Origin: Hyphochytrium catenoides
Lineage: Eukaryota; Sar; Hyphochytriomycetes; Hyphochytriales; Hyphochytriaceae
DNA: 37,826 nucleotides
Reading direction: 5' to 3'
Assembly: GCA_900088475.1 (NCBI GenBank)
Contig: FLMG01000355.1
Location: 1-37,826, forward strand
Below, one piece after another: positions 3,192 to 37,826 of this stretch. Each line of letters starts with the position of its first letter. Position 1 is the first letter of the stretch. Under the pieces are notes generated by a model, which had not been told where the DNA came from, did no database searches, and saw only the letters and a program-made list of their open reading frames with translations. The position numbers were made by a program, and so were the translations under genes.

Positions 3192-4979
3192 ATGGAGACA
3201 CTGCAGGAGCTTCTTGAGCGGCTTGCGCCGAGCTTGAGCGGTGTAAAGGCCACAGCCGAGGAGGCTTTCCCAAAGGAGTTTGAGAATGACCCAATCGTGA
3301 AGAAAATTTGGGACCTCTATGCTGTGGCCTACGAAGTTCAGCAGTATCGGGGTCCGCTGGGGGCCACCATGCTGTCGGACTATCGTTACAATGATCGTCT
3401 CCCCGACCTCAGTATGGAGGCGCATCTTCAGTCAATCCAAGAGCTACAGTCCCTACTGGCCGAAGCCGAAAAGATTGACGCTGAGGCGGTACCAGCGTCG
3501 CAACGTCAGAACTTCCTTTTTCTCAAGGAGATGCTGGAATTAGAGCTCCTTAGGGAGAAGTTACCTTCGTCTAGGCTAATACCTTTGAGCCACCTATTCG
3601 GGCTTCACACTTTCTTCCCTCAGCTGGGCCAATTTCATCCTCTCTCCTCTAAAGAAGACGGAGGCACATTTATGAAGCGGATGCATGCTTTCCCAAAGCT
3701 TATAGAGCAGATCATCGCGGCCTTCCAGGAAGGTGTTTAGGAAGGCTACACTCTTCCTGCCTTCTCTATTGAACAGATCATCGTGCAAGTCAACGACCAG
3801 CTAGTGCCTGTTGACGAGCTAAGTCTCTATGCTGCAGTTAAGGGCAAACTTGCTGCAGTCAATATTGATGACGAGGACTTTCGCCTTGTCCTCAGTGATG
3901 AAGTGCAGCCTGCTTACGCTCGATTGAAGGAGTTCTTGCAGAATGAGTATATCCACCATGCCCGCACAACGGATGGAATCAGCTCTTTCCCCTTGGCCAA
4001 AGAAGTGTATGACAAAGAGCTGCGATATTACAGCTCACTACCATACTCCTCGGAGAAGATCCATCAGATGGGCTTATCCGAGGTTGCGCGTATCAAGCAA
4101 GAGATGGAGGGCATCAAAGCGCAAGTAGGCTTCAATGGTACTCTTTCTGAGTTCATGGATCACCTCAAGGAAGAGCCAAAGTTTGTACCACCAAGCGGCG
4201 AATATATTGTGGAGGAGTACAAGCGGATCCTGAAGCTGGCGGAGGACCGTGTCAAACCGTTCTTCGGCTTGATGCCCAAGGCTTCTTACGATGTAAAGGC
4301 CATTGAGCCCTTTAGAGAAAAAAGCGCTCCGCCTGCGCACTACTTCCCACCTGCCCGGGATGGCTCTCGTCCTGGTTTGTTCTATGCAAACACCTACAAA
4401 CATGAAACAAGGCCCACATATGTGATGGAGTCTATTGCACTCCATGAGGCAATTCCAGGGCATCATTTCCAAATTGCCATTGCACAAGAACTTCCTGGTC
4501 TCCCTCGTTGTCGCACTTTAACTCAAGGTTTCACCACCGGCTACATTGAGGGGTGGGGACTGTACACAGAAAGGCTGGGATTGGAACTCGGATTTTATAC
4601 AGATCCTTACCAGAACTTCGGACGCCTAGTGACGGAGATGATGAGGGCAGTACGATTGGTCGTTGACACCGGCATCCACTCGATGGGCTGGACGCGGGAG
4701 AAGGCCCTTGAATACTTCATGGCCAATTCCGCTATGGGAGATACCGACGCTAGGAACGAGGTGGACAGGTACTGCGTGTTCCCGGGGCAAGCAGTCTCTT
4801 ACAAATGCGGTGATATAAAGATCTGGGAGCTTCGGAAGTACGCAGAAAATGCCTTAGGTGACCTCTTCAAAGTCTCTGAGTTCCATGACGTTGTGCTAGG
4901 CGTAGCATCAGTGCCTCTGCCAATACTGGAAACTACTATTCACGAATGGGTTAAGAGGAAGCAGCAAGACTCCGCATAA
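3192..4979 (+). CDS. DUF885-family putative metallopeptidase with an internal TAG
   Basis: A single-exon frame of 596 codons including the internal and terminal stops, which is the usual DUF885 length. The first ATG in frame is at 3192; an upstream exon with a targeting peptide is possible. N-terminal family signature: DYRYNDRLPDLS near residue 65. Catalytic-type motif HEAIPGHH is at residues 418-425 (bases 4443-4466), followed by GYIEGWGLYTERLG, whose Glu is the likely further metal ligand. The C-terminal GDTDARNEVDRYCVFPGQAVSYKCG region is also typical. The family is mostly bacterial and is thought to be zinc-dependent peptidases; the substrate is unknown. Codon 183 (3738-3740) is TAG between QEGV and EGYTLP, where homologues continue without a gap, and both sides stay in the same frame. 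It may be a pseudogene, a sequence error or readthrough; no phase-compatible GT-AG intron removes it. The TAA stop is at 4977-4979. Confidence 0.85.
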
Positions 4980-5808: not shown

Positions 5809-8800
5809 ATGAGGGCCATCGTGTGGTACTGCTGCGCGGTGATTTGGGGCAGCGCTACACCTCTCAGTCTCGCTTTGTACGCAGATCAGGCTGGACAGTT
5901 CGACTGGCTACAGAGATATGTAGGCCTTGTGTCAAAGGCAACCTATGACGATAAGAGGACCTATGTAATGACGGAAAGCAACGTCATAGCATCATTGAAG
6001 TCCAAAACCGGGGAGATTCAATGGCGACAAGTTCTACCTGAAGGTCTGTAAGATTGCAGGGATATTCTGCCGCATTTGCTGAAGTCGTGTCTGCAGGAGA
6101 TCGAGTGAACGATATTGGCCTTTGTGGAGGCGGAGTTCTCTCTGTCTCCGGGTAAGTGGATGTTTGCTTTGCTGGCCGCATTCGAACGACCAAGTCTGAT
6201 TATATCTTAAGGAGGAGGTTCATTCGAGGATGGAGTGCTAACGAGGGGAAGTTACAATGGGAGCATGTCCGAGGATCTGGTGACGGATTGGCCCGGGTGG
6301 CAGTTATATCAGATAATGAGGCGCTAGCGGTATCAGGCAATGAAGTGTCATTGGTCAATTGCAGAACAGGGGACATTAAGCGATCCACTACGTTGGGAAC
6401 AGATAAGGGGGTGACTGAAGAGATGGTCTTTGAGAAGGTAAGTGAACTCATTGACTCCCATCTGGCCGGCCTAAGCGTCTTAGTATTTGCGATGAAGGGA
6501 ACTGAAAAGGTCCGCTTCCTGAGCCGTGAAGGCAAGATCGTGCGGGTTTTCAGCCTGGATCTTGCAACGTGGGAAAAGAAAGAGGAGACATACTTTTCCA
6601 ACAGTAGAGATCAATCGTTACCTACTACCTACCTGAAGAGCAGCAAAGGTTCTTATTCCATTACATTGGTGCAACTATCCCTATAGTCGTTGAAAGTGTT
6701 TGTTGCCCAGGTTCTTCAGGCCCATTTCTTACACAGCTGGCGAAGGACGGCACCCTTGACGTCGTCACCCTCCAGACAGGCAAAAGTTATTCTTATGGAC
6801 TGTCCAGCTTCACAGATTCCAAAGCCTCGCCTCAACAGTTGCTCTTCCCTGCACCCTCGCAGCACAACACAGTAGGAGCTTTTGTGGTGGTGGATGAAGA
6901 ACAAAATGCCCATCTTGCCTGCCTGAATGACGGCGGAGTCCCACAACACATTAAGACGGAGAAAGGAGTAGAAACGGCTGCTGTCGGGGCTGCTACCCTA
7001 GAGACTGAAGGTACTTCACTCACTGGTCAGGCCCGTGATTTCGGGACATCGTGGTTCTTTGATTTGCCCTACGGTCTTTGTAGTTCTGATAGTATTGTTA
7101 GCAACAAGGCAGGGCGGATAGAGACCCCAGGTTGCTTCTGTATATCTCTCTCTTTCTGAGAGACGGATGATGCCTGTCACACTTCTCAGTTCTCTTCAAC
7201 TATTCAACGCAACAGACGGAAAGGAGTTCATTGTATTTGCCTACAAGTCTACGAAAGGGAGTTTTGTTTTGGAGCTTATCGCTATGGATTCTCTCACGAG
7301 TAAGTTTGTCGACCAATTGGTGCTTCCCGCGGTACCTATGACCGTTGTACCTCCGTTGGGTTACACACCTGCCATGGCTAACGACCGCTTCAGTTGTCCA
7401 GACTTGGAATATCAAAGATGGGTTGTCTGATACCGTGGGCCTTCTTAATGTCTTCGCCCAGGTAAGTCTACCACCCTCGCCTGTCCCAGTTCCAGAAACA
7501 GCATCTTTCAGGACTTGGCAAATTAGATTGTTTAGAAATGTCAAGAGGAGACTTCTTAATGTAGCGTTGTCGGTACAGGTCTTCACTCGAAAAGGCGATG
7601 GACGCATCGCCTTCAGGGCGTTAGTCCTGGAAAGGGATCACAGGACCATTGCTGTCGAGAAATCCAAGCTGATGTGGACCAGGGACGAAAGTCTGGCTTC
7701 CATTGCGAAGGTAGGAGCTCCAAAAATGAAATCAGCATCTGAATTAGGCTATTGAAGTTGAGCTACTTGAATAACGAAAGCGAAGAGAGGGGTATGCTGC
7801 GGGACAGTACTTGTGTCCTGAGCCAGCGGTGGACTAGAGCTGAAAGTACAACGGCCAGACAGCGCGCTTGGGACAGAGAAAATGAAGTGGGCATGGAGAT
7901 CACATAAGAGAAGTCTGCATCCACCGTAACGGGTCTAGTCCACGTCTTTGAACGAGATTGTTTGCCATTGCTGTTAGGTGGAGTGGATTGGCCTCTCAGA
8001 GCACGTGGAAGAGGAGACATTTGTGCACATCCCTCCCTTTACCGAGCGCTTGAAAGTGCAGCTGCACCACTTGCAGAGTTTGGGTCGGAAGCTGCTCGAC
8101 CCTTCAAGCTTTACTACAGCATTCACTGACAATAAACACTACTTTGGATTTGATAAGGTAGGGCCCTTCAATAGCGGCATTCTCCGTCTTGGATTTACAC
8201 CTCGTTGTCCTCACCTAAGCTGTGAGCCATCTCAATACCCGTTGACCTTTCCTTTTCCTTCTGCAACCGTTCCTGGGGTTCTCCCATATTGGTGTGTCAC
8301 TTGCGAAACCTCAGGCGTCCGAAGATGGCATATTTTTCTCAGAAATCTCTGTTGGTGCTTTATACAATGCAGGTCATTGTAGCGTATACTTCTACGGGGA
8401 AACTGTTCGGGATAGAGGCATCTACTGGCTCTATTCTTTATCGCGAGCAATATCCTCCCCATCTTCAGCTTGTACCAAGGAGGAGGATGCCGGGAGGAGG
8501 GGAGGTCGCGGAACTCTTCCTTTTATCTTCTTCAAGCCTCTTTGTCATCAATGGGGAGACCGGAAAGGCAACGAAGAAAATAAGTTTGGGACAAGGTATG
8601 TGGTGGCTAGGAGAATGGAACCTGCTTTCGGTCTTCCAGGCTTAAGTCTTTAGAATCCTTCTGGAGGTGCTAGGCTAGTCTATCTTGCATCCAGCGAGGT
8701 GCTTACTTCTTTGTCCCTTCGATGTCTACGACGCTCGTATGTTCAGATTGCGACCAAGTCCTTCTGTTCCCGCCGCACGCACCGTCCGCCGGGATGGAAG

Positions 8801-11471: not shown

Positions 11472-14400
11472 TTAAGGAGCTTCATCGTCGACCACCTCTG
11501 GGGAGGAAGTGGGGACATTGGCATCTGCAAGAGCAAGGCGCTTGTTAGAGAATGGGACTTTAAGGGGCACATCAGCATCGTATAGTAACGTAGCAATGCG
11601 TAACGGAAAGGACCTAATCGGGCAGTGATGCAGACAGTACGGAGGAGTTTGGGGCACAAATGCATACGGTAGAAGAGGCTTGATCTTACTCTTCTTCGGT
11701 TCCCCCCTCTGTACTGCGGTGATTCTGTCACCAAGGCTGAGGGCAATGCCTTGTGTCTTGCTTCTGATACGGATGTACCCAGAAATCTTTCCATCCTCCT
11801 GCTTCTCAACGCTGAGATTGATCAAAGCATCCTCGCCTGTTTTAATGAGCAGAAAAGAGGCATCAGAAACATCAGGGCTAGAATAACGACTAGTGGGTTG
11901 AGCTGCACAATGCGAAGCTCTCCTATAGGACGATCATGTCTCACCAAAAACACTCTTTGCATACAAGTTCGCTGCAAGGAAGTTCGTCTCGCCGTCCAAA
12001 GCGGACACAGGCGTGAGACAATTCATGTTTGTGCTCTTCACAATGTGAGAGAGAAACTCCGTCACGTCTGTGATATTGGTATTGACTGCAACCTTATTCT
12101 CCCATTCAAACTCCGCCCACATAGTGCGGAAGGCAGCATCGCTACAGGTGCCTAATCAGCGCAGAGAGGACAGAGTTAGGTAAGCAAGAACGGAGACGTG
12201 AAAAGTGGAAGGAAACGTCTAAGGGCAAGATCCGGATATGGAGATAAGCAAAGGGTGATTAGGCATGACTCCTTCTGCAGAATGCAACCCCTTCCTGGGT
12301 AACCACTATGGCCTTAACCCCTTCATGCTGTCTGTTGGACGTCCTGTTTGGGGAATATCATTAGTCCTACAGCTGCTCAACCTGGTTGTATATAGTCCAT
12401 AATGTCGAGGTGCACGTCATTGAGGTTGATCACAGTCTTCTCGACGTTGCTCGAGGTGTCAAAGACTATTGTGCCAAAGATGTGTCCGGTCTCAGTGGAC
12501 GAAACCTGCGGGTTGGAATTAGGCAAGTATTGTATCACCGTTAGAATGGGCGATAACAGAGGATGTTCGAGTAAAGCGAGAGGGGATAAAGTATGAACTC
12601 CCTAGATCATAGACACAAAACAAGCTACATTCAGGCACCTTGATGTTAGCCTTGATCGTCTTATGGTCAAGAGGTCCGATTGTATAGCTCTGCGGTCGCT
12701 CCACCAGCTTCAGATCACCCATAGTAGCCAGCTCTACCGTGAGATTGGTCAAAGTCTACGAGAAAAGAAGCAAATTTAGCGGTACGATTATCCAGTCTTC
12801 AGATGTCCAATAATTGAAATCGAAGTAGGGCTAAAGAACGAAGACGCATAGCAACTTTTCTAGTGGCTACCGGTACTGTTCCAAAGGAGGCGCTCCTTTG
12901 ACGGTAAAGCATAACATGGCTAGAACAGAGAGCCCGAGGAGACCACAACCATCGGCCTTACATTTGGCGTTCTATTGATGACAAGAATCTCCAGAACAAT
13001 GTCATAGTCATGGACTGTCACATATGCCTCTGCGTAGACTGGATCCGCAAAGCCAGAGAGCTGATAAATCCGTGCCAGCTTGGACTCAAAGGGAGTCTGA
13101 TCCTTGGCTCCGGTCGCCCGTGAAATGTCAGTGCTATCGTCAATGTCAATCTCTAATGGAAGCCATGACATGGGAGAGGTTGGATAGATGAGGAGGGTTA
13201 GAAGTCCGCTCGCAAGGAGAGATGCAGCCAACCAACTAATGAAGTGTACTGACTATATAGGTAAGCAACGAACAGACAACAGTGCGTTATCGTTGAAGTT
13301 CTTCACGTTCAATCGTCCTCAAGAAGGCGAGCCAGTAGAAGAAGCCTCATGACCGACGCATTAGCCGAATTAATAGAGAGAAGAGTACTCCTACATCTCA
13401 CCTGTGACACCTAAGGACTTGGTCCCTCTCAGCTGCCGGATGGAGATTAGATCGTCTGCTTGGGCAACGGGCTGTAAAACCTTGGTAGACTTCAGCTCAG
13501 ACTCCTTTTGAGCAGCCAAAAGCGCAGAGTAACTTCGACGGCAGTCTGACAATAAAAGAGAACGATCATTAGCACTCGCTTAATTTGACAAGCCTTAGAT
13601 TGAATAGGAAATTTAGTCAGTGGATACGACGGCTTGAAATCAAGCTATGGGCCAATAAACCTTCCACGAACTATTCGGTGAAGTTTAAAAGCTTTAAATG
13701 GTTACTTTACCTCCTAGCATCGTTACTCCAAGTTCCTCTCCTATAGAAGGATCGCCAAGGATCTGCAGGCAGAGGGAGATCCTCTGACGTGAATGACTAT
13801 CGATCTTCGCCTTACTGTGCGATGACTGTCCGTACAACACGATGTTGCACATCATCATCATCGACTCCACAATCTAAGAAGTGTCCCGTAGCGCAAAGTG
13901 AGGGACAAATAGTCAGACTTGCCAAAGAGCTATGGCACTTGAAGAGGTGCAGGATGAATACAAGGGCCCCTTTGAGATAAATTTCATAGATGGTAGGACA
14001 AGGCCTTGCTCCGAGAAAGGTAGGGATGTACGTCGCAGGAGGGCTCTCAAAAAACGCTATGGAGTTATGCTAAGCTTTGCAAAAGATGCTCAAAACTAGC
14101 TATACGAGCAAACGGCAGCACTACTATAAAAATAAAGCGCGTAACAGTAGGCCAGTATAAATATAGAGAGTCAACCAGCACTTACAATGACTTTGGCCGA
14201 TGGAGAATTGGATCCGTAGGTTGATGCAGCACGGAGTGACAGTTTGGTGAGGCAGACAGCAATTGAACTGCCAAGGTAGTAGTCACCAGCGAGAAGTAGT
14301 TTTCTAAGGGTGGCCTGAGTAGACAAAGGAGTAGAAAGCCGATGACACATTAGATCAGCAATCATAAATAGTACCGCAAAGATAAAAACTGAAGTATTCG

Positions 14401-26854: not shown

Positions 26855-29800
26855 TCATCCGCCTCCTAGTATGGTATTCAAAATGCTGCCAAAGACTGGC
26901 CCTGCTAGTGCTTTGCAGAAGATGGTCACTGGCTCCTTGATGAATAGGTCAGCAGCCATTGAGATCAGAGAGGTTGTCAGCCAAGCGTCAGCTGTCCCCT
27001 CATCAAACTTCACCCCAAAGATAAGGTTGATGAAAAAGCAGAAGAGGATAACACCCAGAGCAACTGCCCATACAACCCCCAACAGGATTCGTCGGGTGAT
27101 ATTGTTCTGTCTCCAGTGGTTGAGTTCACGGAGACGCTGAGCCTGAAGCCTAGCATGGAACCCGCGATAGGCAGCTTGGACGCGCTTGACACAAATGACC
27201 ATATGAGGTGTGATTGGCCTACCATCCACCAGAACTCCCATCTTCAAGCATCTAGCAGCAATGGCCTGTTCCTTTGCCTTGCGGCTTTCAATGAAGTAGC
27301 GAGGGCTGTAACTCATAATCGCAAGCACCAAAGCATAGATCAGCAGCAGAATACCGACCACAATCAGGGCATTGGCCCATGGCAGTAGGATAGATATGAA
27401 AAAGTCAAGGAGTAGGTTGCCACAAGGATTGCCAATGCTTGACAAAGCACAGTTGGTCTGTTTGATGTAAAGCTCGTCTGGGATTTCGTCAAAGCCACAG
27501 CAAGAGAATGTGCGCTGCACAGTCGTGAATATCAGTGCGGCCTGGTGAGCGCCTTCAGGATCCTCAAGATTTTCCAGCATTTTGTTCCATTGTGTTGCAA
27601 GCACGTTGTATGCCTTATTTCGGTATGGCTCTTCATTGGCAACAAGGTGAACGACCGTCCCTGCCAGCATCATAGCGCCCACGAGAATGACTAGAGTAGA
27701 TGCAAAGACCCGGGTTTCCGCTGGCTTGCGCTTGTGAATTGCCGACAAGCCAAAGACGCTGAGTAACGTTCCTAGACCACCAGTGGCCCCTGGCACAAAT
27801 GCAATGGTGCTGCCAAATCCGTAACCCGACTCTGGGACTGCGGCCATATATATTGCAACACCAACCATTGACAGCCCTGCCAAAAACAACAGACAGGCAA
27901 CACCCATCAGGATTTGAGGTAGAAGGCTAAAGGGACGATAGGCCTCGCTGACGCCAACCATGGGAGACAAGTCTTCCTCAGCAACAATTGTCGTTCTAGG
28001 AAGAGGTGGGCCTTTGACTGAGCGCTCCCCTCGAGGTGAGAATGAGTAATCCTCATTCATATTTTCTAAGTGTTCGAGCAAGTTCTGGTCCGTCTTCGCC
28101 TTTGCCGGCTTCTCCGAGGGGCTCGAAGGACCCTGTGCAAGGTCGACAGGCGCTTGCGCATCCTCCGATGCTGGACTGACTGGCATCTTTGCATCACGAG
28201 CTTTTTGTTTGCCAAAAAGGACGTCGACAGTAGATTTGGCAGTGGCCTTGTCGTGCTTGCTGCCCAGTTCCTTGATTTGCATATCTTCGGCCTTCTTATG
28301 GTCAACATGCGGTCCAAGTAATTTTCTTTTAACCCTCTTTGAACCTCTTTGCAGATGCTCTTCGATAAAATCCAATGTGGTGGACTTAATTGGATTCTGA
28401 AGCTTCATGAAAGCCATTGGAATTCCAACCTCCACAGGAAGCATGATGCACATCGATATCAGAGATACCACCAAGGTCTTGGCAAAATTATCCTGTCGCT
28501 TGCCATAGAAAACTGCAGCCACAGTGAAGGAGATCATAACCGTTGCGCAGAAAACGGCAACCCGCTGAGGTCGGGAAAGGGTTACATGAGAGTGAGTTTG
28601 AGGCTTGAGAATACTGACCCACTTGCTCTCTTCCCTTAACACGCCTAGAATTTCGAACAGCATTCCCTTCGTATAACCATAGACTGCTGTTGCGTATCGG
28701 TGTGATTTGGATTCTCCGGCGGGGACGAGGCCAGTCTTGTCCATTTTGTCCTCATTGTCAAGCTCCTCGGCGTCTTCTTCTTCTGCTTTGTACATTCCCT
28801 CCTTGAGATATACGTTGGTCAAGTACTCATTGAGCTTCTCTTGGTCGGATTTATCCAGGAAGTAACCCATGACTCCTACGATAAGGAACCCTCCCAAGAC
28901 CGAGCACAGAATGATAAGCGGAAGGGGGTTGTTTTCATAGAGAACTAATAGCTTTGCATCTCCGATTGGGTCCACCTAGATCATAACAAAATGAGTACGG
29001 AGATTGCAGCTTAAACTCTGGAAGGCCCTGCCAGACCTTAGTCCCACCTGATTGATTTCGGGAAGCAAAGTATCCGCCGAAGAGCTGAAGTCCGTCAGAT
29101 GGGTTATCTCACAGTCCAAGTAGATTACAGCGTCCTCTAGTACTACTCCGCGTTGAAGTAGGCCGTCAGTGACCCAGACTTCTCGCTCCTTATCCCAGTA
29201 CCTGCAATCAGGAAACGTATCTGCAACGAAAAGGTTAGCAACATGGTTGCGGTTAGCAATAGTAGCACGCTCATCATCCAACCCCACCATTGGGAATATA
29301 CTTGACAGTGATACGCATTGAGATAGGCTTGGTCAGGTTTGCTACTGGTGCGATGCTGTTGGCATCCCCCTCTGATGCCGTGAACGAGAGTACGGCAGAA
29401 GACAGGCTCTGATTATTCTCGCTCCAGATGTAGGGGTTCGAGCTCCATTGGATAGCCTGTCAGTAACCAAGACATCAACCAGTTTGTCACCTATTGGGAG
29501 CTACGCACTGAGAAAGAGTTCATGCCTGCGCTTACCTTTACACTGAAAGAGGAGTTCTGACTAGAAGAACTGGACAGACCTTCAGGTAGCGTCAATCTGG
29601 GCCCATTGGGCACAACAAGGTCTGGTCAAGATTAAACTTTAGAGGAGGTGAAGAAAGTCGCGAACACCGAAGCTTGTAGGTGACTCTTACCTGTGGGGCC
29701 ACTAATGTCTGACCGCGCTGCTGCCAATGAGATCTTATCGCTGGAGAGGGTCACTGGTGTTTCTCCAGGTAGCGATTGCGACAACAAGAGGTCTCCAAAA

Positions 29801-32800
29801 CTGCTAATCAGACTGACCATAGTCTCACTGGCCGTCCGGACTGGATCACTTTCTGCAGCAGTTAGCCTTCGCTTCTTACCCGTGAGTTTTGCATTTTTTG
29901 CCTGCTCGGATGTGGCGGTGAAGACATTACTGACAGCCCCTAGAATGGTTGAGCCCGTGCTCGGATCTGGGACGTTTTTGATAGAGGTAGAAGAGACGAT
30001 GAGAGTTTCAACGAAGTCCAGCGCCTTATAGGAAGTCTCCGCATTAAGCTCCTGAGGAGATGACGTGATGGTGCGCAGAGAGACTGCTCCCTGCGCCAGA
30101 GCTTCCGGCGAGGGATCCTAATGACCCAACAAAAATGTTAGAAAGCTCTTCACAACTCGAATCAAACTAAGAGGCGCTCTTACGATATTGGCACTTGCGG
30201 TGATGACGGCGTCAAGGAGTTGAGACCTGATAGCCTTCCGAGCTTCCACTTCGGCCTCGGTAAGAGAGCAGTCTGCTCCACTCCAGCCCTTGTCACATGC
30301 ACAACTGTATTGGCATCCATTACTCACACTACACCCCTGTTCTCTCACGCAGACACCGTGATTGGAGCACTCCGGAATGGTGGGATCTGCATAGGCCATC
30401 GGTGTGCCTATTGTACAATCGCGTGAAACGCAAACAGGTGATTAGTGACATCCAACATCAGGCTCGATGGCTATCCCAATGAATTTACCTGCAGGATAAG
30501 GCGGACAGAGAGGAACCGGTGCTGGGCAGAGTGCAAGGTTGCACTCCCTGGTCTCAGTCATGGGTCCAAGGCGAGAGCAATCCTTTCCTCCTTTCGATGG
30601 TGCGGGATTGGTACAAGCCCGCTGTCTAGACTGCGTTCCAGGGAAGAACCCTCCCCTGTCTGAGGGGCAAGAGGAGGAACATTTGCTCCAGTCACTCCAC
30701 TTCGTGTAACCCCCATCTGCCATAAAGTGAGGATATGAGTTTTCAATCTAAGCGTCTTTGACGAAGGTCTTACCTATTTCTTTCTCGCAAAGTTCACTGT
30801 TGCAGAGTTGCGTCTCTTCCGCAGCTCCTGAGCAAGGGTTGCCACCTCCACTGGGGGGTGGATTGGTACAGGTCCTCCACCTCTTTCGGACACCGCCACC
30901 GCAACTAACGGAACAGGGTGACCATTCAGTCCAAACTGACCAGTTGCCGTCAATTACTGGTGGCTTTTCACACTTTTGACCAGAGTAACCGTTTTTGCAG
31001 TTGCAAACGCCCTGCTGGCAGGAGCCATACTGTCCGCAGTCTAGTCCTCTGCAGGGGTCAGCCAGAAGACTGCCCAGAATATTGACCACCGTCAGTACAG
31101 TGTCTGCGCCACTTGCTTTAGTTGATCCGAGAATGCTTGAAGCGTTGGCAGTAAGGAAGGAAGTAGTTAAGGAAGAGTTGGGACCTCCACCTCCCCCTTG
31201 TCCTGAGTCACTTTGCTGACCGAGACCAAGTGGAAGGACTGACACCAGTGCTCGTGACCCGTCGTGTAATGTATCACACCGAGTGCTAGCTCCCAAATTA
31301 TCCGCCACGTAGACTACAATTGTGTTCAAATGGTCCTTGCCTTGGCCCTGGGGTAGCATGGAGCTGTAGGATGGACTATCTCGGAAAGATGATATCAGGG
31401 CTACCTCCTGCGCAGTCGTTCCGTTATTAGCCATGGACATGTTGCCACGTGTGTACTTGTACCAGTAACTGAAGGGATAGTCCGCGGCGTCGTCTGTCCA
31501 TGAGCTAGAGACGGCGATGGTGAAAGTCGTCTGGAGCACGATGCCGGTGGTTGGCGTCACAATAATGAAGCCACTGGAAGGAGGAGCATTCATCACAATG
31601 GAGATTTTACCAACGCCATCTCCATTTAAGGTTGAGGCTGTTAGCGAGAATGTGTAGGTCGAGCCCGGGTTGAGACCATTAGGTCTAACGACTAGCTGAG
31701 AGCCCGTGATACTAGTGGAGCTGAGGCTAGCGATGCTAGTGGAGGTACCAAGTTCATCCTGCGGAATGAGAAATGCATCCGTGAGTAGGGTGACCAAGGA
31801 CCAGCTAATGCGGTAATGAAGCGTCGTAGAGTTCAATAAGAGGGATGGACAAGGGAGACTTAGGAGGACGCCTAAATATAGCAGCCCATTGAGTGGTGGC
31901 AAGAAGGACTGGAAGGCTAAGAAGGATGTCTTACAATGGACCAGAGAAGGGTATAGTCGGGCAATGTGGAGTTTACTGTGGCCAATAAGACAAGCCGTTT
32001 GGAGGGGTCGTGCTTTCTCGCTTGTACTTGAGAAAAAACCTGGACGACAGGTGGTTTGCCGTGTGTGAATGACAAGATGGTCTTAGCTGTAGCAGTTCTA
32101 TTGCCGATGATATTGTTCGAAGTGCTCTTGTTAAACTCCAATGCAACTTGGACCCTGGACGCTGGCGGGAACATTCCCGGCGGTATGTTAATCACCGAGC
32201 CATTGTTAGTCGTATACTGATTAATGTCGAGCGTCGCATTGGTCCCAGCTCTAAGACATGGTGCCTGTTGCCCGGTATTGGGTAGAGTTGCGCAGCTCCA
32301 TCGATAAGAAGTTTGAACACCGGCTTTGATGTCGTCGGGGTCTGACGACGCACTTCCGTCCAAGCGAATCCAATCATCGGACCCCGCAGTTCTATCGCCC
32401 CCTTTAATCCTGAACGGGTGGAAAGGCAAATGTTGATTAGGTACTTGACGACCAAAGCTTATTGGGCATGGTATCTTCGAATCTTTGCTGAGTCTTTCAA
32501 GCATCACAAAAGCGGCACTTCAAGGACCTTACCAAGCCACTAGGTCACTGGGCATGACTGTGATTTCCAAAGTGGCAGAATTATTCAATGACTCATTCTT
32601 GAACAGGCTCACCCAGCAGGTAAAACGGTACTGCTGGCCGGCATTCAGCAAATTTGGAGAGATCCGAAAGGATCTTGGATCTCTCATTATGCCACGACTG
32701 ACGTTTATCTGGTGGACATCTGTGGATTCCTGAATCCAGTTGAACTTCAGACCCGACGTGGAATCTGTACTATCATTCCCACATGAGAGCATGCTGGTTT

Positions 32801-35800
32801 CAACTCTTACAATGACATCTTCGCTACGCCGTATAGCCCTAACGTGATTGGTTAGAAATACGAATACGCTCACCGCTACAGCCAAACCTACACGAAGCAT
32901 TCTGTTGTTACCTACCTTGACGAAGCTCCAGCAATTTTAACGCTCGGAATGTTCTGCTCCGACTTTCTGAGCATTACCGCTGCTTGGCCTATTGTGGAGC
33001 TCAGGTAATTAGAGGCTGAAGCGGTGAAGTTGTAGGAAGACCCGCTATTGAGTAGTCGGCTTGGGACTCGCACAACCGCTGCCGTCGTATTTGTCAACAG
33101 GACCGCCAACTCTGCTGAGATGTTCTGTGCCAGTAAAGATGCGTTACTACAAAGAGAACACAATAGATCACTATCCCTATTGGCTCGTCACCTGTTCAGA
33201 GGATGCCACACTCCATGAGAACGCCATTTGCCTTCCTCCACTACCGCGAGACAGTGATGCATCCATAACAAGGTCCTCACAGGATCCGAGAGTGGATGGT
33301 GCTAGTAACACCACCTGCGGCAAAGGGGGGTTGAGGGGGGGCAGAACCGAGATGCATCCTGAGGATGATGCAATACTTCCGGTCACAGCCTTAAGGGCTC
33401 CAGTTCTTAAGGTAAGTGATCGACCAAGTGGGCAGGATGTGAGCAGGCCGCTGGACTTTGCCTGCATGTATGGCTGGATTGTTGCCTCAGAACCCAATCG
33501 TAGACTGATTGTGGTGGCGTTCTCCCAGAGACACTGGGCCCCGCTGCCCAGATAGGACACTGTGGAGGAGTCAAATGCTAGAGCACAGTCTACAAACCCA
33601 GTTTGTCCCGAAATTTTGAGGTCTGTCAATCCGCTGAAGCTGACAGCGATAGAGGCACCCGTGTCAGTGAAGCGAGCTAGGACCAAAGAGGGAGGTGGAA
33701 TTCTTCCCTGGAGGAGAACTAACCCTGACGCAGCTACCCCTGTTTTGCGTGATATGACCTCACCACGAACTACAAGTGGAGTCTTATCAGGTATCGAGGT
33801 GGTCGCGTATTGAGTGTTTCTAACTGTGATGTTTAGCGTGGTTTCGTTGAGCCAGGAACAAGACGATTCTCTCCCCAACAGCTCCCAAGTGGTCCCATCA
33901 AAGATTAGCTCTGGAGTGCAAGCACTTTGAAGAGTCTCAACGGGTTCGTCGAATGCCATCAGGATTGTGTTCGAGGTCTCTAGCAGTACCGCAGAGCGCA
34001 CAGTAGGGGCGTTGGGTGGCACGTACACGTGATTATGGATTGTACGCACTGGATCCGAACCAGATGCACGCCATCAAAGATTATGTATTAGTGGAGTCGG
34101 ATGGGAGGAAACAATATGATTTAGCATTTCCATCAGTAAAGCATCACGTGGTCTCCTTACCTTCAATGGATACTTGACTGAGGCTGTAGGCCCTATCGTC
34201 TGAGGACGTCACCAGTGTTATGATGGTGCTATGGTTGTTGACGGGAATACTGGCATCCTGCGGGACGATAGTCGCTGTGACCAGCCGTGAGATATTCCAA
34301 TTCTGTGATGTAAACACTATAGAGCTGATGTCAAGCACAACATCGCTGATGTTGCTACTTGTCAGCCGAAGCACAACGTCCGCCTGCGGTCGAGACCTCA
34401 GAGATAGCGTTAGCGAAGCGGTCATGCCTATATTCCCAATGGGGCGTTCAGCAACGCTAACAACCCTACTTGACACTGTGAGACCAGGCATATCCACCTC
34501 GGTAACTAGGAACGAAGTTGTAGGTAAACAACTGCCATTAGCCAGTACTGCAAGAATCCAATCGCTGTTCGTGCTCTGCAAGGTCCCAAAGAGGTTAAGG
34601 CAGCTCTGTTCCCCAGGACTTTGCCATAGACAATAGTCTGCAATGTAGCGAATGCAGCCTAGACCATCTTGATAGCTTCTGCACCGCTGAGTATTGCAAG
34701 GACTTCGTTGGTCGTCCCAGGGGAATGGACACCGTGTCTCTCTGTTGGTAAGCGAGAGTACTGCATTCAGCAGTTTCGTTTCAGCGTCCGGAAGACTGAT
34801 ATCAGATGTATTCCATCCTGACATGGAGAAGGGGTTCATCCAGTTGAACATTGAGATAGACGTTCTAGTTTCCGACTGCTTGCATGCTGTGCAGTCCGAA
34901 AAAAACGTGATATTTCTTGGAGCTGAGTCACCCCCGAAAGTGATTGTTGTTCCAACAACAGTGTCGTTCTCCCTTCGCAGCGTGAGTTCCCCCCATTCTC
35001 CGTCGATGTGGTTCTCCCACCGAGCGGTCGCGCTCCGCATGCCGTAATACGAGAAGTTATATACTGAGATGTTGCCCTCAGAGAACTTTCCGTACCCGTT
35101 AGAGATGAGCACCGAACCCATAGAGGTCTGCCAGACACGGTCGTCCATCCACCTAACCCACCCCGACTTAATGACATCCGGACATGTTGTGACACAGCGT
35201 TTACCGGTCCACTTAAAAGCAATTTCAGTTGCACTATGCTCAAGTCCAAAAGAGATAAGGATTTCTGTCCCATCCCAACTCCGGGAGACGGTAAACAAAC
35301 CTTTCATGGCGCTACTATCATCAACCCAAGTCCCTCCAGCCGTGGAGGGGCTTGAGTAGAGAATTGAGGCCAGGGTCATATTAAATATAGTGGATTTGGA
35401 CGAAGACTGTACAAGACCAAATTCACCGTGGATAGCCACATAGCTACCATTGCTGTCCGTCCAGACCCCGTGAAACCATAGACGGTCAGTCCAAAGAGAA
35501 GAGGGCAGAGATTTGCCAGGGCAGCTTGGAATATTGTAAAGGGGATTGTTGCTTGAAGTTGACAGGGCGACGATCGCCGTTCTCGCTTCGACTGCAGCAA
35601 AATCCCTACTGCCCGACACGGAGAAGTTTCTAGTTCGACTAGAGTTTTGGTCGAACACGATAATGGACGGGCTGATCGTGACATTGCTACCGCCACCGGT
35701 GTCCAAACTCTCCACCTTAAGGATAACAGGAGAGAGAGGATCGCCAACAAGACTTGCCGAGAATTGCAGAGTCTCATTTTCAGCGAGTGTGAGCTGATTA

Positions 35801-37826
35801 TTCCTTCCCAAAATATTACCCGACGCCAGCATGATCTCAACCCCAAATCGCCGCTGGAAGCGGAAGGAGATGGCGTTTGATGTTACTGGCCAACCAGAAG
35901 AGGTTGCCAATACTGTATCCATCAGCATTCCAGCGCTTGGGCGAGCTACTGGGCTTGGTGTTACATAGACGTACTGGATTGTCTGAGAAGGATCTGAGAA
36001 ATTATAGGTCAGACGGGCTGGGAAGACTTGGAAGTTACCGAGCGCGCTGCTGACAAAAACATTTAGAACTTCGTATGGAGCAACGAAATCCTTGGACCAT
36101 TGTACCCTTACGGTACCAACAGAACCGTTCAACAGTCCTCCATCCACAAAGTCCACGGGAATGAGCTCTATATCTGGCCGTATGCTCTCTCCTGTACCCA
36201 TCAAAAAGTGCGGGAGACAGGTTGGCCTTTGCGGTAGATATGGCCATGATATCCATGAGCGCACTACATCCGAATCACACGAGGATGGGCTGCTGGGTTG
36301 CATGTAACGACAATAGTCTCGGACATACTCTCCACACCAATCTAATGCTGCCTCAGATGGGACGCCCACATGACCACTCCAGAGTACTTCGCTTAATAAA
36401 GAAAGAACAGAGACAAGGAACGCGAGCGAACGAAAAGGTGTCGGTCAGAGCGGTCTGCCGTAGCATGGGTCCACTATGCTACATCTCATTTGTTTCACTC
36501 CTTCCGAATAAAAGCGCACTCACCTGCAGTTTCGGACGTGACAAGGGTTCATAGGATGAAGATCATCATGAAATAGACAGCTTCCTGGTGATAGGTGGGT
36601 ATGGAGCCACTCCAAAAGAGCAGAATGATTGTAGATGGCACGCTGGCCAATATGAGAATCATCACACGTCGGAAGGTCAGAGTACAGGGGAGACAAAGAC
36701 GATCGGGTTGTGATATTGAGTTGATTCCCCTTGTTCAGAGATTCCTTCGCAGCATCAGACAAACGTAACCATGGCGCCGACTTTCTCTCAGACGTCAAGA
36801 AAATTCCGTCCTCGGGCAAGATCTCGCCATCCATTGTCTGAGCTTTAATTCCATAGGTCGAGACCCACGTGACATTCACAGAAGCTTGCTCTTGAATGGT
36901 GTTTGACAAAGCAAACCTCAAGAGCATGGTCCTAAAAGAGAGGGCACCAGGCATGACCAATCAACACCAAACAGACCGTGAGAGATTATGAGCACTTGAG
37001 GAGAACAGGGTACGGCCATGATAAAACGATCTCAACGCAGCAGAGAGATATAACAACTAGGAAGAAGATCACGTTGCCCGATTCGAAGTTCAACTTACCA
37101 GGGCGATAAGCGCTTTGATGCAACCCGAAGACCTTTGTCGTTCGTGACTCTGGTCCTGACAGAGAACGAGCGGCTCCACGTCCTGCCAATAAGATTAAAG
37201 GATATCACCTGGTACTGGATAAAGTTCCCGTTTGTGGGTTCGGTAACAGTTGAAGTACGAAGATAAATCAGGGTAACAGCGCTGGCACTATAATCGAAGC
37301 TGATAGACCGTGAGAAATTTGCACAAGGTCCACTGCTTTCCATTGAAAGAGCACAAATGCCAATGGTTGCGTTCTGTGTCCCCGCTGTTGCCATGGCAAG
37401 GGAAGAAATGGACAGTGTGAACGGAAAGCCTGAAGGATGGAATTGATTGATAAAGGGAAAAACGAGCTCTCTTATCCCGCTATCTCCTTGCAGGATCAGT
37501 CCATCGACTGCAGCTGTTGCGGCATCAAATTTGTTCTCATCAACAACCATTAAAGTGAGCGGAGAGGCACATTGTCTAGGACCCAAGAGAAGAGCGGGCT
37601 CCTTTCCGAGAGTGTTTCTCATGTCTGCGAACAGATTTATACAGCCCAAGTCATCTGACTGAAGCCAGAGGCAGTACTCGATTATTTGCTGCACGCATTC
37701 ATGGTAACCATCAAGTGAGAAGCAAACAGGATTCCGGCATGGGGTAAGAGGATGTGCAGGGCTGAAAGGACAGCTATCCAAAAGTCGACCTATTCTTCCC
37801 AGTGAGAGAGTAAGGCTTGAGAGCGG
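26855..37826 (-). CDS. giant REJ/TSP1/EGF/GPS polycystin-like receptor with embedded tetraspanin, 5' partial
   Basis: One gene read leftward in at least 13 exons with roughly 3,200-3,400 codons visible; the N-terminus lies beyond the window. Order: three Cys-rich modules (37742-37569, 36546-36217 across an intron, 34701-34528), each followed by a beta-rich segment; a Trp-rich stretch near 35500-34850; a REJ-like region starting near 33340 ([18 protein letters not shown]) and running to about 31200; EGF (31059-30964); TSP1 (30945-30787); TSP1 (30708-30526); EGF (30369-30268); GPS (29206-29085). A 72-nt intron (28976-29047) then joins the 706-residue last exon, which has about nine TM segments and an IQ motif. 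Many N-x-S/T sites support extracellular exposure. REJ-GPS proteins (polycystin-1, sperm receptor for egg jelly) are surface receptors; the role here is unknown. No PLAT domain is visible after the first TM. TGA stop at 26855. Confidence 0.85.
27296..27919 (-). other. tetraspanin-like module inside the receptor's membrane region
   Basis: Residues 353-560 of the last exon. TM helix (353-379), short outer loop ([10 protein letters not shown]), TM (390-412), short basic inner loop (HKRKPAE), TM (424-446), a 75-residue loop (447-520) with [11 protein letters not shown] carrying the Cys-Cys-Gly signature at 492-494 and single Cys at 509 and 518, then TM (522-556). Order, loop lengths and the four-Cys pattern are those of tetraspanins. 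Flanking TM pairs (137-157, 167-190; 629-654, 664-686) look polycystin-1-like. An IQ motif ([17 protein letters not shown], 599-615) follows the module on the predicted cytosolic side. Confidence 0.8.
29085..29206 (-). other. GPS (GAIN-type autoproteolysis) motif
   Basis: [15 protein letters not shown], about 17 residues, then [10 protein letters not shown]. The first Cys, both Trp positions and the H-L-T cleavage triad (29101-29093, cleavage expected between Leu and Thr) are present. Two of the four canonical Cys, the one after the second Trp and one of the C-x-C pair, are absent. The first TM helix follows about 30 residues later, across the 72-nt intron, as expected for a GAIN/GPS protein. 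Confidence 0.85.
30268..31059 (-). other. EGF - TSP1 - TSP1 - EGF block
   Basis: EGF 1 (31059-30964) has six Cys ([12 protein letters not shown] then [13 protein letters not shown]). TSP1 1 (30945-30787) has [19 protein letters not shown] with the W-x-x-W-x-x-W ladder and the CSVSCGGG motif. TSP1 2 (30708-30526) has [12 protein letters not shown] with an insertion of about 8 residues before R-x-R-x-C, and has lost the first Trp. EGF 2 (30369-30268) ends [13 protein letters not shown]. These modules are common in extracellular adhesion proteins. Introns fall between modules. Confidence 0.88.
31200..33420 (-). other. REJ-like (receptor for egg jelly) region
   Basis: Encoded over several exons. 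It opens with [20 protein letters not shown] and [17 protein letters not shown], matching the characteristic REJ start (Cys-x-x-Leu, Ser-x-Gly-x-Gly-Gly-Arg, then a Trp). It contains repeated strand patterns such as [40 protein letters not shown] and [20 protein letters not shown], the REJ 'L.pg..Y.f...v' motif. In polycystin-1 the REJ region precedes the GPS/GAIN segment, as it does here apart from the interposed EGF and TSP1 modules. Confidence 0.8.
34528..37742 (-). other. three Cys-rich modules alternating with beta-rich segments
   Basis: Each module reads P-C, 4 residues, C, then a segment with a Cys before [YI]-[IV]-x-[DE]-Y-C, a further Cys 9-10 residues later and a last Cys about 20-24 beyond. 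Examples: [13 protein letters not shown] (37742-37569), [13 protein letters not shown] (36546-36217, split by an intron whose phase-2 junction completes a Ser codon) and [12 protein letters not shown] (34701-34528). Each is followed by 100-200 residues of alternating hydrophobic/polar strands; one such stretch ([20 protein letters not shown]) resembles beta-sandwich repeats of surface proteins. I do not recognise the Cys module as a named domain. Confidence 0.75.

Follow-up and report, generated by a model that had tools for sequence, protein, structure and literature searches.

A tetraspanin domain placed inside the putative polycystin-1-like membrane core of a probable REJ/GAIN-GPS adhesion receptor

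The window, i.e. the whole stretch of 37,826 nucleotides of DNA that was analysed, carries on its minus strand a gene model that is best explained, with a probability of about 0.6, as a REJ/GAIN-GPS adhesion receptor with a five-TM polycystin-1-like core that carries, in the cytosolic TM3-TM4 loop, a complete tetraspanin. The parts belong to known families and, as far as the searches reach, the placing of one of them inside the membrane core of another is new. The order of the parts, their conservation, the identity of the tetraspanin, the in-frame splice signals and the relation of the TM4-TM5 pair are established at the level of sequence, and the parts are laid out as follows, from the N-terminal end of the protein to its C-terminal end.

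26855..37550, minus strand: gene model in the window, 14 introns, 3063 aa; the start at 37550 is arbitrary, the first usable ATG
31276..32408, minus strand: REJ domain, two exons, E 6.9e-54
30184..31758, minus strand: exons for the EGF-like modules, the pair of TSP1 repeats and the last part of the REJ domain (Pfam)
29691..30117, minus strand: exon where the GAIN-type region preceding the GPS starts; homology to P0027 (hhalign E 4.2e-16)
29087..29206, minus strand: exon before the last, GPS-like motif with an HL^T site, putative cleavage between 29096 and 29095
28976..29047, minus strand: last intron, phase 0, GT-AG, matched in alignment column and phase by an intron of the paralogue
26855..28975, minus strand: last exon, 706 codons plus stop, nine hydrophobic segments (TM1-3, tetraspanin, IQ pattern, TM4-5)
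28856..28924, minus strand: TM1, about aa 18-40 of the last exon, after the GPS; the exon has no Met upstream of TM1
28406..28561, minus strand: TM2-TM3, about aa 139-190, with marginal polycystin-1 likeness (2.8 bits to human PKD1, reached by 6/500 decoys)
27320..27913, minus strand: tetraspanin domain (PF00335), aa 355-552, segments 4-7 of the last exon
27494..27502, minus strand: CCG motif of the large outer loop, aa 492-494
27449-27451 and 27422-27424, minus strand: partner cysteines Cys509 and Cys518, from the homologue alignment
27149..27181, minus strand: IQ pattern, aa 599-609, adjoining TM4 on the cytosolic stretch
26912..27070, minus strand: TM4-TM5 pair, aa 636-688, which matches a profile of tetraspanin-free REJ/PKD1 proteins

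Three copies of the last exon were found, two of them in this genome and the third, P0002, in another data set. The paralogue (G000:C800:75011-91138, plus strand; L005 and L006) lies on the same contig as the window in the opposite orientation and has the same order of parts, with about 62 kb between the two tetraspanins; its gene model runs to 5041 aa, the first half of which may belong to another gene. The window and paralogue models share 2921 aligned columns (37.6%), and 10 of the 14 introns occupy the same column and phase, a further three agree in phase and lie at most 14 columns apart, and the remaining one is different. P0002 covers the last exon and is 37% identical in the full-length alignment, and it probably comes from a second organism, since a search of this assembly with the exon yielded only the window copy and the paralogue. 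The last-exon open reading frame (26855-28975, 706 aa) has no internal stop, and sliding hydrophobicity gives nine segments each in the window copy, the paralogue and P0002, so the exon limits and the nine segments of the earlier note were correct. Its further claim that the arrangement is not an assembly join is borne out as well, because the distant paralogue has the same order of parts and the last exon occurs again in P0002, which is from other data.

Codon positions 1, 2 and 3 are identical between the paralogues at 0.465, 0.556 and 0.307 of sites (675 aligned codons), while fourfold sites are saturated (20 of 76 alike); the sequences thus indicate an old duplication, and from the same pattern the retained residues have probably been kept by purifying selection. 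Protein searches were restricted to 0.55-1.75 times the query length and about 8000 scored candidates. Within these limits searches of 5.77 billion proteins with the exon and with the A2 profile returned P0002 as the only relative of the exon. A further search used residues 1400-2813, a badly chosen region that included the TSP1 repeats and for that reason is uninformative on full-length membrane relatives: 26 of its 27 matches carry TSP1 (PF00090), with many named SCO-spondin or similar and one from Cryptosporidium, and only P0027 lists both REJ and GPS.

The simplest reading of the last exon is a host core of TM1, TM2-TM3 and TM4-TM5 with the tetraspanin inserted in the cytosolic TM3-TM4 loop. 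Such an insertion would keep the host topology, because a tetraspanin has four TMs and both of its ends are cytosolic, a topology that hydrophobicity and charge pattern also predict for this domain. The charges near the membrane agree with the insertion, as the predicted outer loops have 1, 3, 0, 2 and 1 positive residues versus 5, 3, 3, 7 and 0 on the inner side, counted with TM limits set by hand. The polycystin-1 likeness of the core is carried by its last pair of segments. A forward profile of TM4-TM5, made from the three tetraspanin-bearing proteins and compared with block-shuffled decoys in which local composition was kept, matched TM4-TM5 of human PKD1 in register with 8.7 bits, a score reached by 0/500 and 1/5000 decoys in two runs, and matched the REJ gene L024 with 9.7 bits (0/500 and 1/3000 decoys); the scores for P0027 (1.3 bits, 15/500 decoys) and for the C961 locus (5.0 bits, 37/500) were not convincing. 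In the other direction, a profile of four tetraspanin-free TM4-TM5 pairs (human PKD1, L024, C961 and P0027) picked the last pair in all three proteins: the window copy scored 12.0 bits (2/1000 decoys), the paralogue 23.6 bits (0/1000) and P0002 12.2 bits (0/1000). This reverse test is partly circular, since its segments were chosen by eye and C961 was chosen for its likeness to this very ending, a circularity of which the forward tests against PKD1 and L024 are free.

The rival that survives best holds that the protein is a REJ-GPS receptor with a tetraspanin, but that its other five TMs are generic helices which resemble polycystin by composition. The likeness of TM2-TM3 is indeed marginal: beyond the PKD1 comparison, its score against P0027 was reached by 2/500 decoys and is weak, while L024 (199/500) and C961 (46/500) show no likeness. 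Pfam on the exon and the A2 profile against the PDB gave no match to polycystin-1, and hhalign run from the GAIN region to the end of the protein found GAIN in P0027 but did not reach the TMs of either P0027 or L024. No PLAT domain was found in the last exon at E values up to 10 (Pfam), nor in a genome-wide search whose positive control also gave no match, and the channel half (PF08016) is absent from the last exon in Pfam and none of its reported matches lies on this contig; TM5 is the last membrane segment in each of the three homologues. Against generic helices, the TM4-TM5 match keeps its register whichever side supplies the profile and outscores decoys of preserved local composition, and a REJ domain and GAIN-GPS region directly before TM1 are the usual company of a polycystin-1-like core, so this rival is considered unlikely. 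An adhesion-GPCR core found no more favour, since the exon has no match to a 7TM family and has nine hydrophobic segments instead. Hence, of the polycystin-1-like segments that the earlier note described, TM4-TM5 stands and TM2-TM3 is marginal; the PLAT and channel parts of polycystin-1 are absent. A likeness between TM2-TM3 and TM4-TM5 within the protein was reached by 1/500 decoys in the window copy; it is not claimed, as the corresponding values were 14/500 in P0002 and 90/500 in the paralogue.

Further REJ loci are present in the genome. By eye, the predicted protein of L024 (G000:C838:500-10400) has the segments TM1, TM2-3 and TM4-5 without a tetraspanin, and it may serve as a before-insertion comparator within the same genome. 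At the C961 locus (L025/L030, G000:C961) the REJ exons are followed by an N gap and then by a TM pair like TM4-5 (WLWSFSAGFFIDTFIGVP), and because the gap precedes it the tie of this TM part to the REJ exons is presumptive. The REJ copy of a third locus (L023, G000:C217) looks broken. The genome's reported PKD_channel matches are away from this contig, in PKD2-like channel gene models (L026, G000:C1027; L027, G000:C69), whose products are possible partners of the REJ receptors.

By its sequence, the part comprising segments 4-7 is a true tetraspanin. PF00335 matches the window exon with 46.2 bits (E 5.6e-12; cut-off 32.1) and P0002 with 54.1 bits, and the A2 profile retrieved CD53 (E 7.1e-6), TSPAN15 (8.5e-5) and CD81 (8.6e-5) from the PDB. 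The earlier note had recognised a tetraspanin with a CCG loop here and had named the lack of a significant match as grounds for giving it up; the match is significant and the assignment holds. As for the disulfide pattern of the loop, the CCG and two further cysteines, four Cys in all, are invariant in 3/3 homologues, and the predicted structure of the tetraspanin crop resembles tetraspanins, but the large loop of that model is of low confidence. With Foldseek the crop model had no match under E 0.001, and VIA-align adds little because the tetraspanins among its matches are mixed with designed helix bundles and other four-helix proteins. An AF2 model of the full exon was set aside as uninformative (mean pLDDT 38.5, pTM 0.27). 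Two other tetraspanin matches in the genome (L028 on C345 and L029 on C306) appear to be stand-alone and their predicted models are without CCG, so that among the four tetraspanin matches found in the genome only the embedded ones have this motif.

It might be argued that the tetraspanin is a passive or decaying insert, which serves for membrane anchorage only and does no tetraspanin work. This would fit the strong divergence of the domain between the paralogues (25% identity in the crop) and the score of the paralogue's copy, 26.2 bits, which is under the Pfam cut-off. Nevertheless, the CCG and both further cysteines have stayed invariant in all three homologues despite the saturation of fourfold sites between the paralogues, and the open frame has been kept in all three, which makes a passive insert quite improbable.

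The last exon is connected by in-frame splice signals to the exons for REJ, TSP1, EGF-like and GAIN/GPS parts, in a model built with a gene predictor and with splice sites chosen by hand, some introns being placed with the other copy as a guide. The last intron, which the earlier note had already placed, is GT-AG and in frame, and the predictor found it in both copies with an in-frame join to the GPS exon in each. The claim of a REJ-GPS receptor and a tetraspanin on one polypeptide is thereby supported by a single in-frame gene model whose order is kept in the paralogue. That the last exon is instead a separate nine-TM, tetraspanin-containing protein and the REJ-GPS exons end otherwise is very improbable: P0002, a one-exon prediction on a 5.9 kb contig, does have a Met exactly at the exon start, but in the window copy a stop codon directly adjoins the 5' side of the exon and the first Met (aa 36) is inside TM1, so that TM1 has no ordinary start of its own, while the shared column and phase of the intron, a TM1 that is alignable in all three homologues and the usual position of a GPS just before a first TM (PMC1934368) also argue against two genes.

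In the ectodomain the two TSP1 repeats are well supported (E 2e-16, Pfam) and the EGF-like modules of the window copy are under the Pfam cut-offs. The GPS reads C.YW...W..G...C.ITHLTDF, with HL^T kept, and both paralogues have two of the usual four GPS cysteines versus four in P0027. An 82-aa piece of the window copy scored 17.0 bits, under the Pfam cut-off of 22.5, and the paralogue scored 25.4 bits in the genome search; in longer pieces Pfam lists the GPS for neither of them. The GPS that had been proposed before TM1 is therefore carried by the HL^T site and the score of the paralogue, but not by that of the window copy, and since the window copy is below the cut-off and has two of four Cys, its cleavage is uncertain. 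Elsewhere in the genome another gene (L031, G000:C1098:21541-21648) has a clear GPS motif of 42.5 bits.

Towards the N-terminus the reading frame is still open at the window end and contig bases 37827-40785 of G000:C800, directly beyond, are an N run that hides the gene start, hence the arbitrary start at 37550. The N-terminal 982 aa of the gene model matched no Pfam family. A recurring motif like YI.DYC.W.....CLN was spotted by eye at 34144-36444 and 37095-37826 (minus strand), and one N-terminal stretch in the window copy has an additional match elsewhere in the paralogue (E 3.6e-6); this region is possibly an undescribed cysteine-rich repeat domain.

A strict IQ pattern is shared by the window copy and P0002 (2/3), in which the alignment puts it at one and the same position, and is absent in the paralogue; such a pattern arises in 37 of 5000 shuffles of the exon. 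Pfam lists no IQ for the window exon and gives P0002 13.8 bits versus a cut-off of 20.3. The IQ motif reported earlier is thus present as a pattern, but it is lost in the paralogue and below the Pfam cut-off, and calmodulin binding by this stretch is a hypothesis. Taken as a whole, the earlier reading holds for the REJ-GPS, tetraspanin and TM4-TM5 parts in one gene model, albeit with a weak IQ motif and a marginal TM2-TM3.

To our knowledge, tetraspanins are small stand-alone proteins. The present domain shares with CD53, CD9, CD81 and TSPAN15 the four predicted TMs, the CCG loop with four Cys, a sequence match and, in a model whose loop is of low confidence, a similar fold, but it lies within a receptor of more than 3000 aa as one of its inner domains. 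With polycystin-1 and sea urchin REJ (PKD1 family) the protein shares the REJ domain, a GAIN region with a GPS-like motif before TM1 and the register of TM4-TM5 with human PKD1; unlike that family it has no PLAT and no channel (TM6-11), has TSP1 repeats in its ectodomain and has its TM3 and TM4 separated by a tetraspanin and an IQ pattern. Sea urchin members of the family are described with 0 to 11 TMs and with PLAT in 5 of 10, so PLAT is not universal (PMC1934368). P0027, a REJ-GPS protein of 1940 aa from a JGI data set, shares the REJ, GAIN and GPS-like parts, with five hydrophobic segments after its GPS and no channel match, but it has a plain loop and no tetraspanin match where the tetraspanin would be, and its TM pairs match weakly. 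The Ectocarpus protein Esi0130_0068, reported from a screen for male-gamete-specific genes, is another protist protein with REJ and GPS, with 6 or 7 predicted TMs, but is 1427 aa long (PMC4700764); the word tetraspanin is absent from that paper.

A tetraspanin that works in cis with a GPS-bearing adhesion receptor is described for GPR56/ADGRG1, which is reported to form a cis complex with CD81 and G-alpha-q/11 and whose N-terminal fragment requires CD9/CD81 for its antibody-induced shedding (PMC6092491). There, receptor and tetraspanin are two separate proteins and the core is that of a 7TM GPCR, whereas the present protein is one chain with another membrane core. Polycystin-1 (PC1) is reported to colocalise with tetraspanin-4 in retraction fibres and migrasomes in a subpopulation of cells (PMC10487028). 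Ciliary vesicles of C. elegans are described as carrying both polycystin-2 and tetraspanins (PMC8492061). In the same account the vesicles released externally by IL2 neurons are often without tetraspanin markers, which counts against a fixed tie of receptor and tetraspanin. The open-access literature searched gave no report of a tetraspanin domain together with a REJ domain, and among its best matches none combined a REJ/GPS receptor with a tetraspanin, in line with the earlier note, which knew of no description of the combination.

By analogy with GPR56 and its use of CD81/CD9, the protein is most likely an adhesion receptor to which the tetraspanin partner is permanently joined in cis, and from this we infer how it may act. 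The ectodomain (REJ, TSP1, EGF) would bind a ligand and the GAIN domain would cut itself at HL^T. When the N-terminal part is pulled or shed, the new N-terminus TDFSS would be freed as a tethered signal. The built-in tetraspanin, via its CCG outer loop, would gather the receptor together with its partners into a tetraspanin patch, no separate partner being needed, and the IQ-pattern stretch beside TM4 may make the response dependent on calcium-calmodulin. Since the protein lacks the channel half of polycystin-1, it would have to rely on a separate PKD2-like protein for any ion signal. That it acts in mating is suggested solely by comparison with sea urchin REJ proteins and with the REJ-GPS gene that came out of the Ectocarpus screen. 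More speculatively, and with considerable doubt, a lineage of flagellated protists may have merged a GPS adhesion receptor with its tetraspanin partner, through an insertion between TM3 and TM4, to give a one-chain receptor-organiser, in which ligand-driven shedding would rearrange the tetraspanin patch and could drive receptor clustering or the budding of flagellar vesicles with no G protein and no channel of its own; the fusion would then be the record of an ancient cis partnership.

The genome has no light-harvesting match, in a search whose control matched in a cyanobacterium, and has radial spoke protein 3 matches on two contigs, so the organism is most likely a flagellated heterotroph. 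A genome-wide search for HAP2 found none, and its positive control gave no match either. Elsewhere in the window, 3741-4979 on the plus strand encodes a DUF885 protein (E 1.5e-132), of a family that Pfam describes as bacterial and that is here found in a eukaryote, while an EMC1 fragment below cut-off (6156-6683, plus strand) and a coatomer beta appendage platform fragment (11472-11933, minus strand) are ordinary housekeeping neighbours.

Gene fusions often join proteins that function together. A receptor that holds a tetraspanin inside its own core, and that is kept so in a paralogue and a third homologue, makes it testable whether GPS/polycystin proteins and tetraspanins are partners or meet by chance. 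The architecture bears on the meaning of the encounters described for GPR56 and CD81/CD9, for polycystin-1 and tetraspanin-4 and for polycystin-2 and tetraspanins as vesicle cargo. Furthermore, the one-chain protein would be a model of a fixed receptor:tetraspanin stoichiometry, and it would demonstrate that a second complete membrane domain can be accommodated in a polycystin-1-like core.
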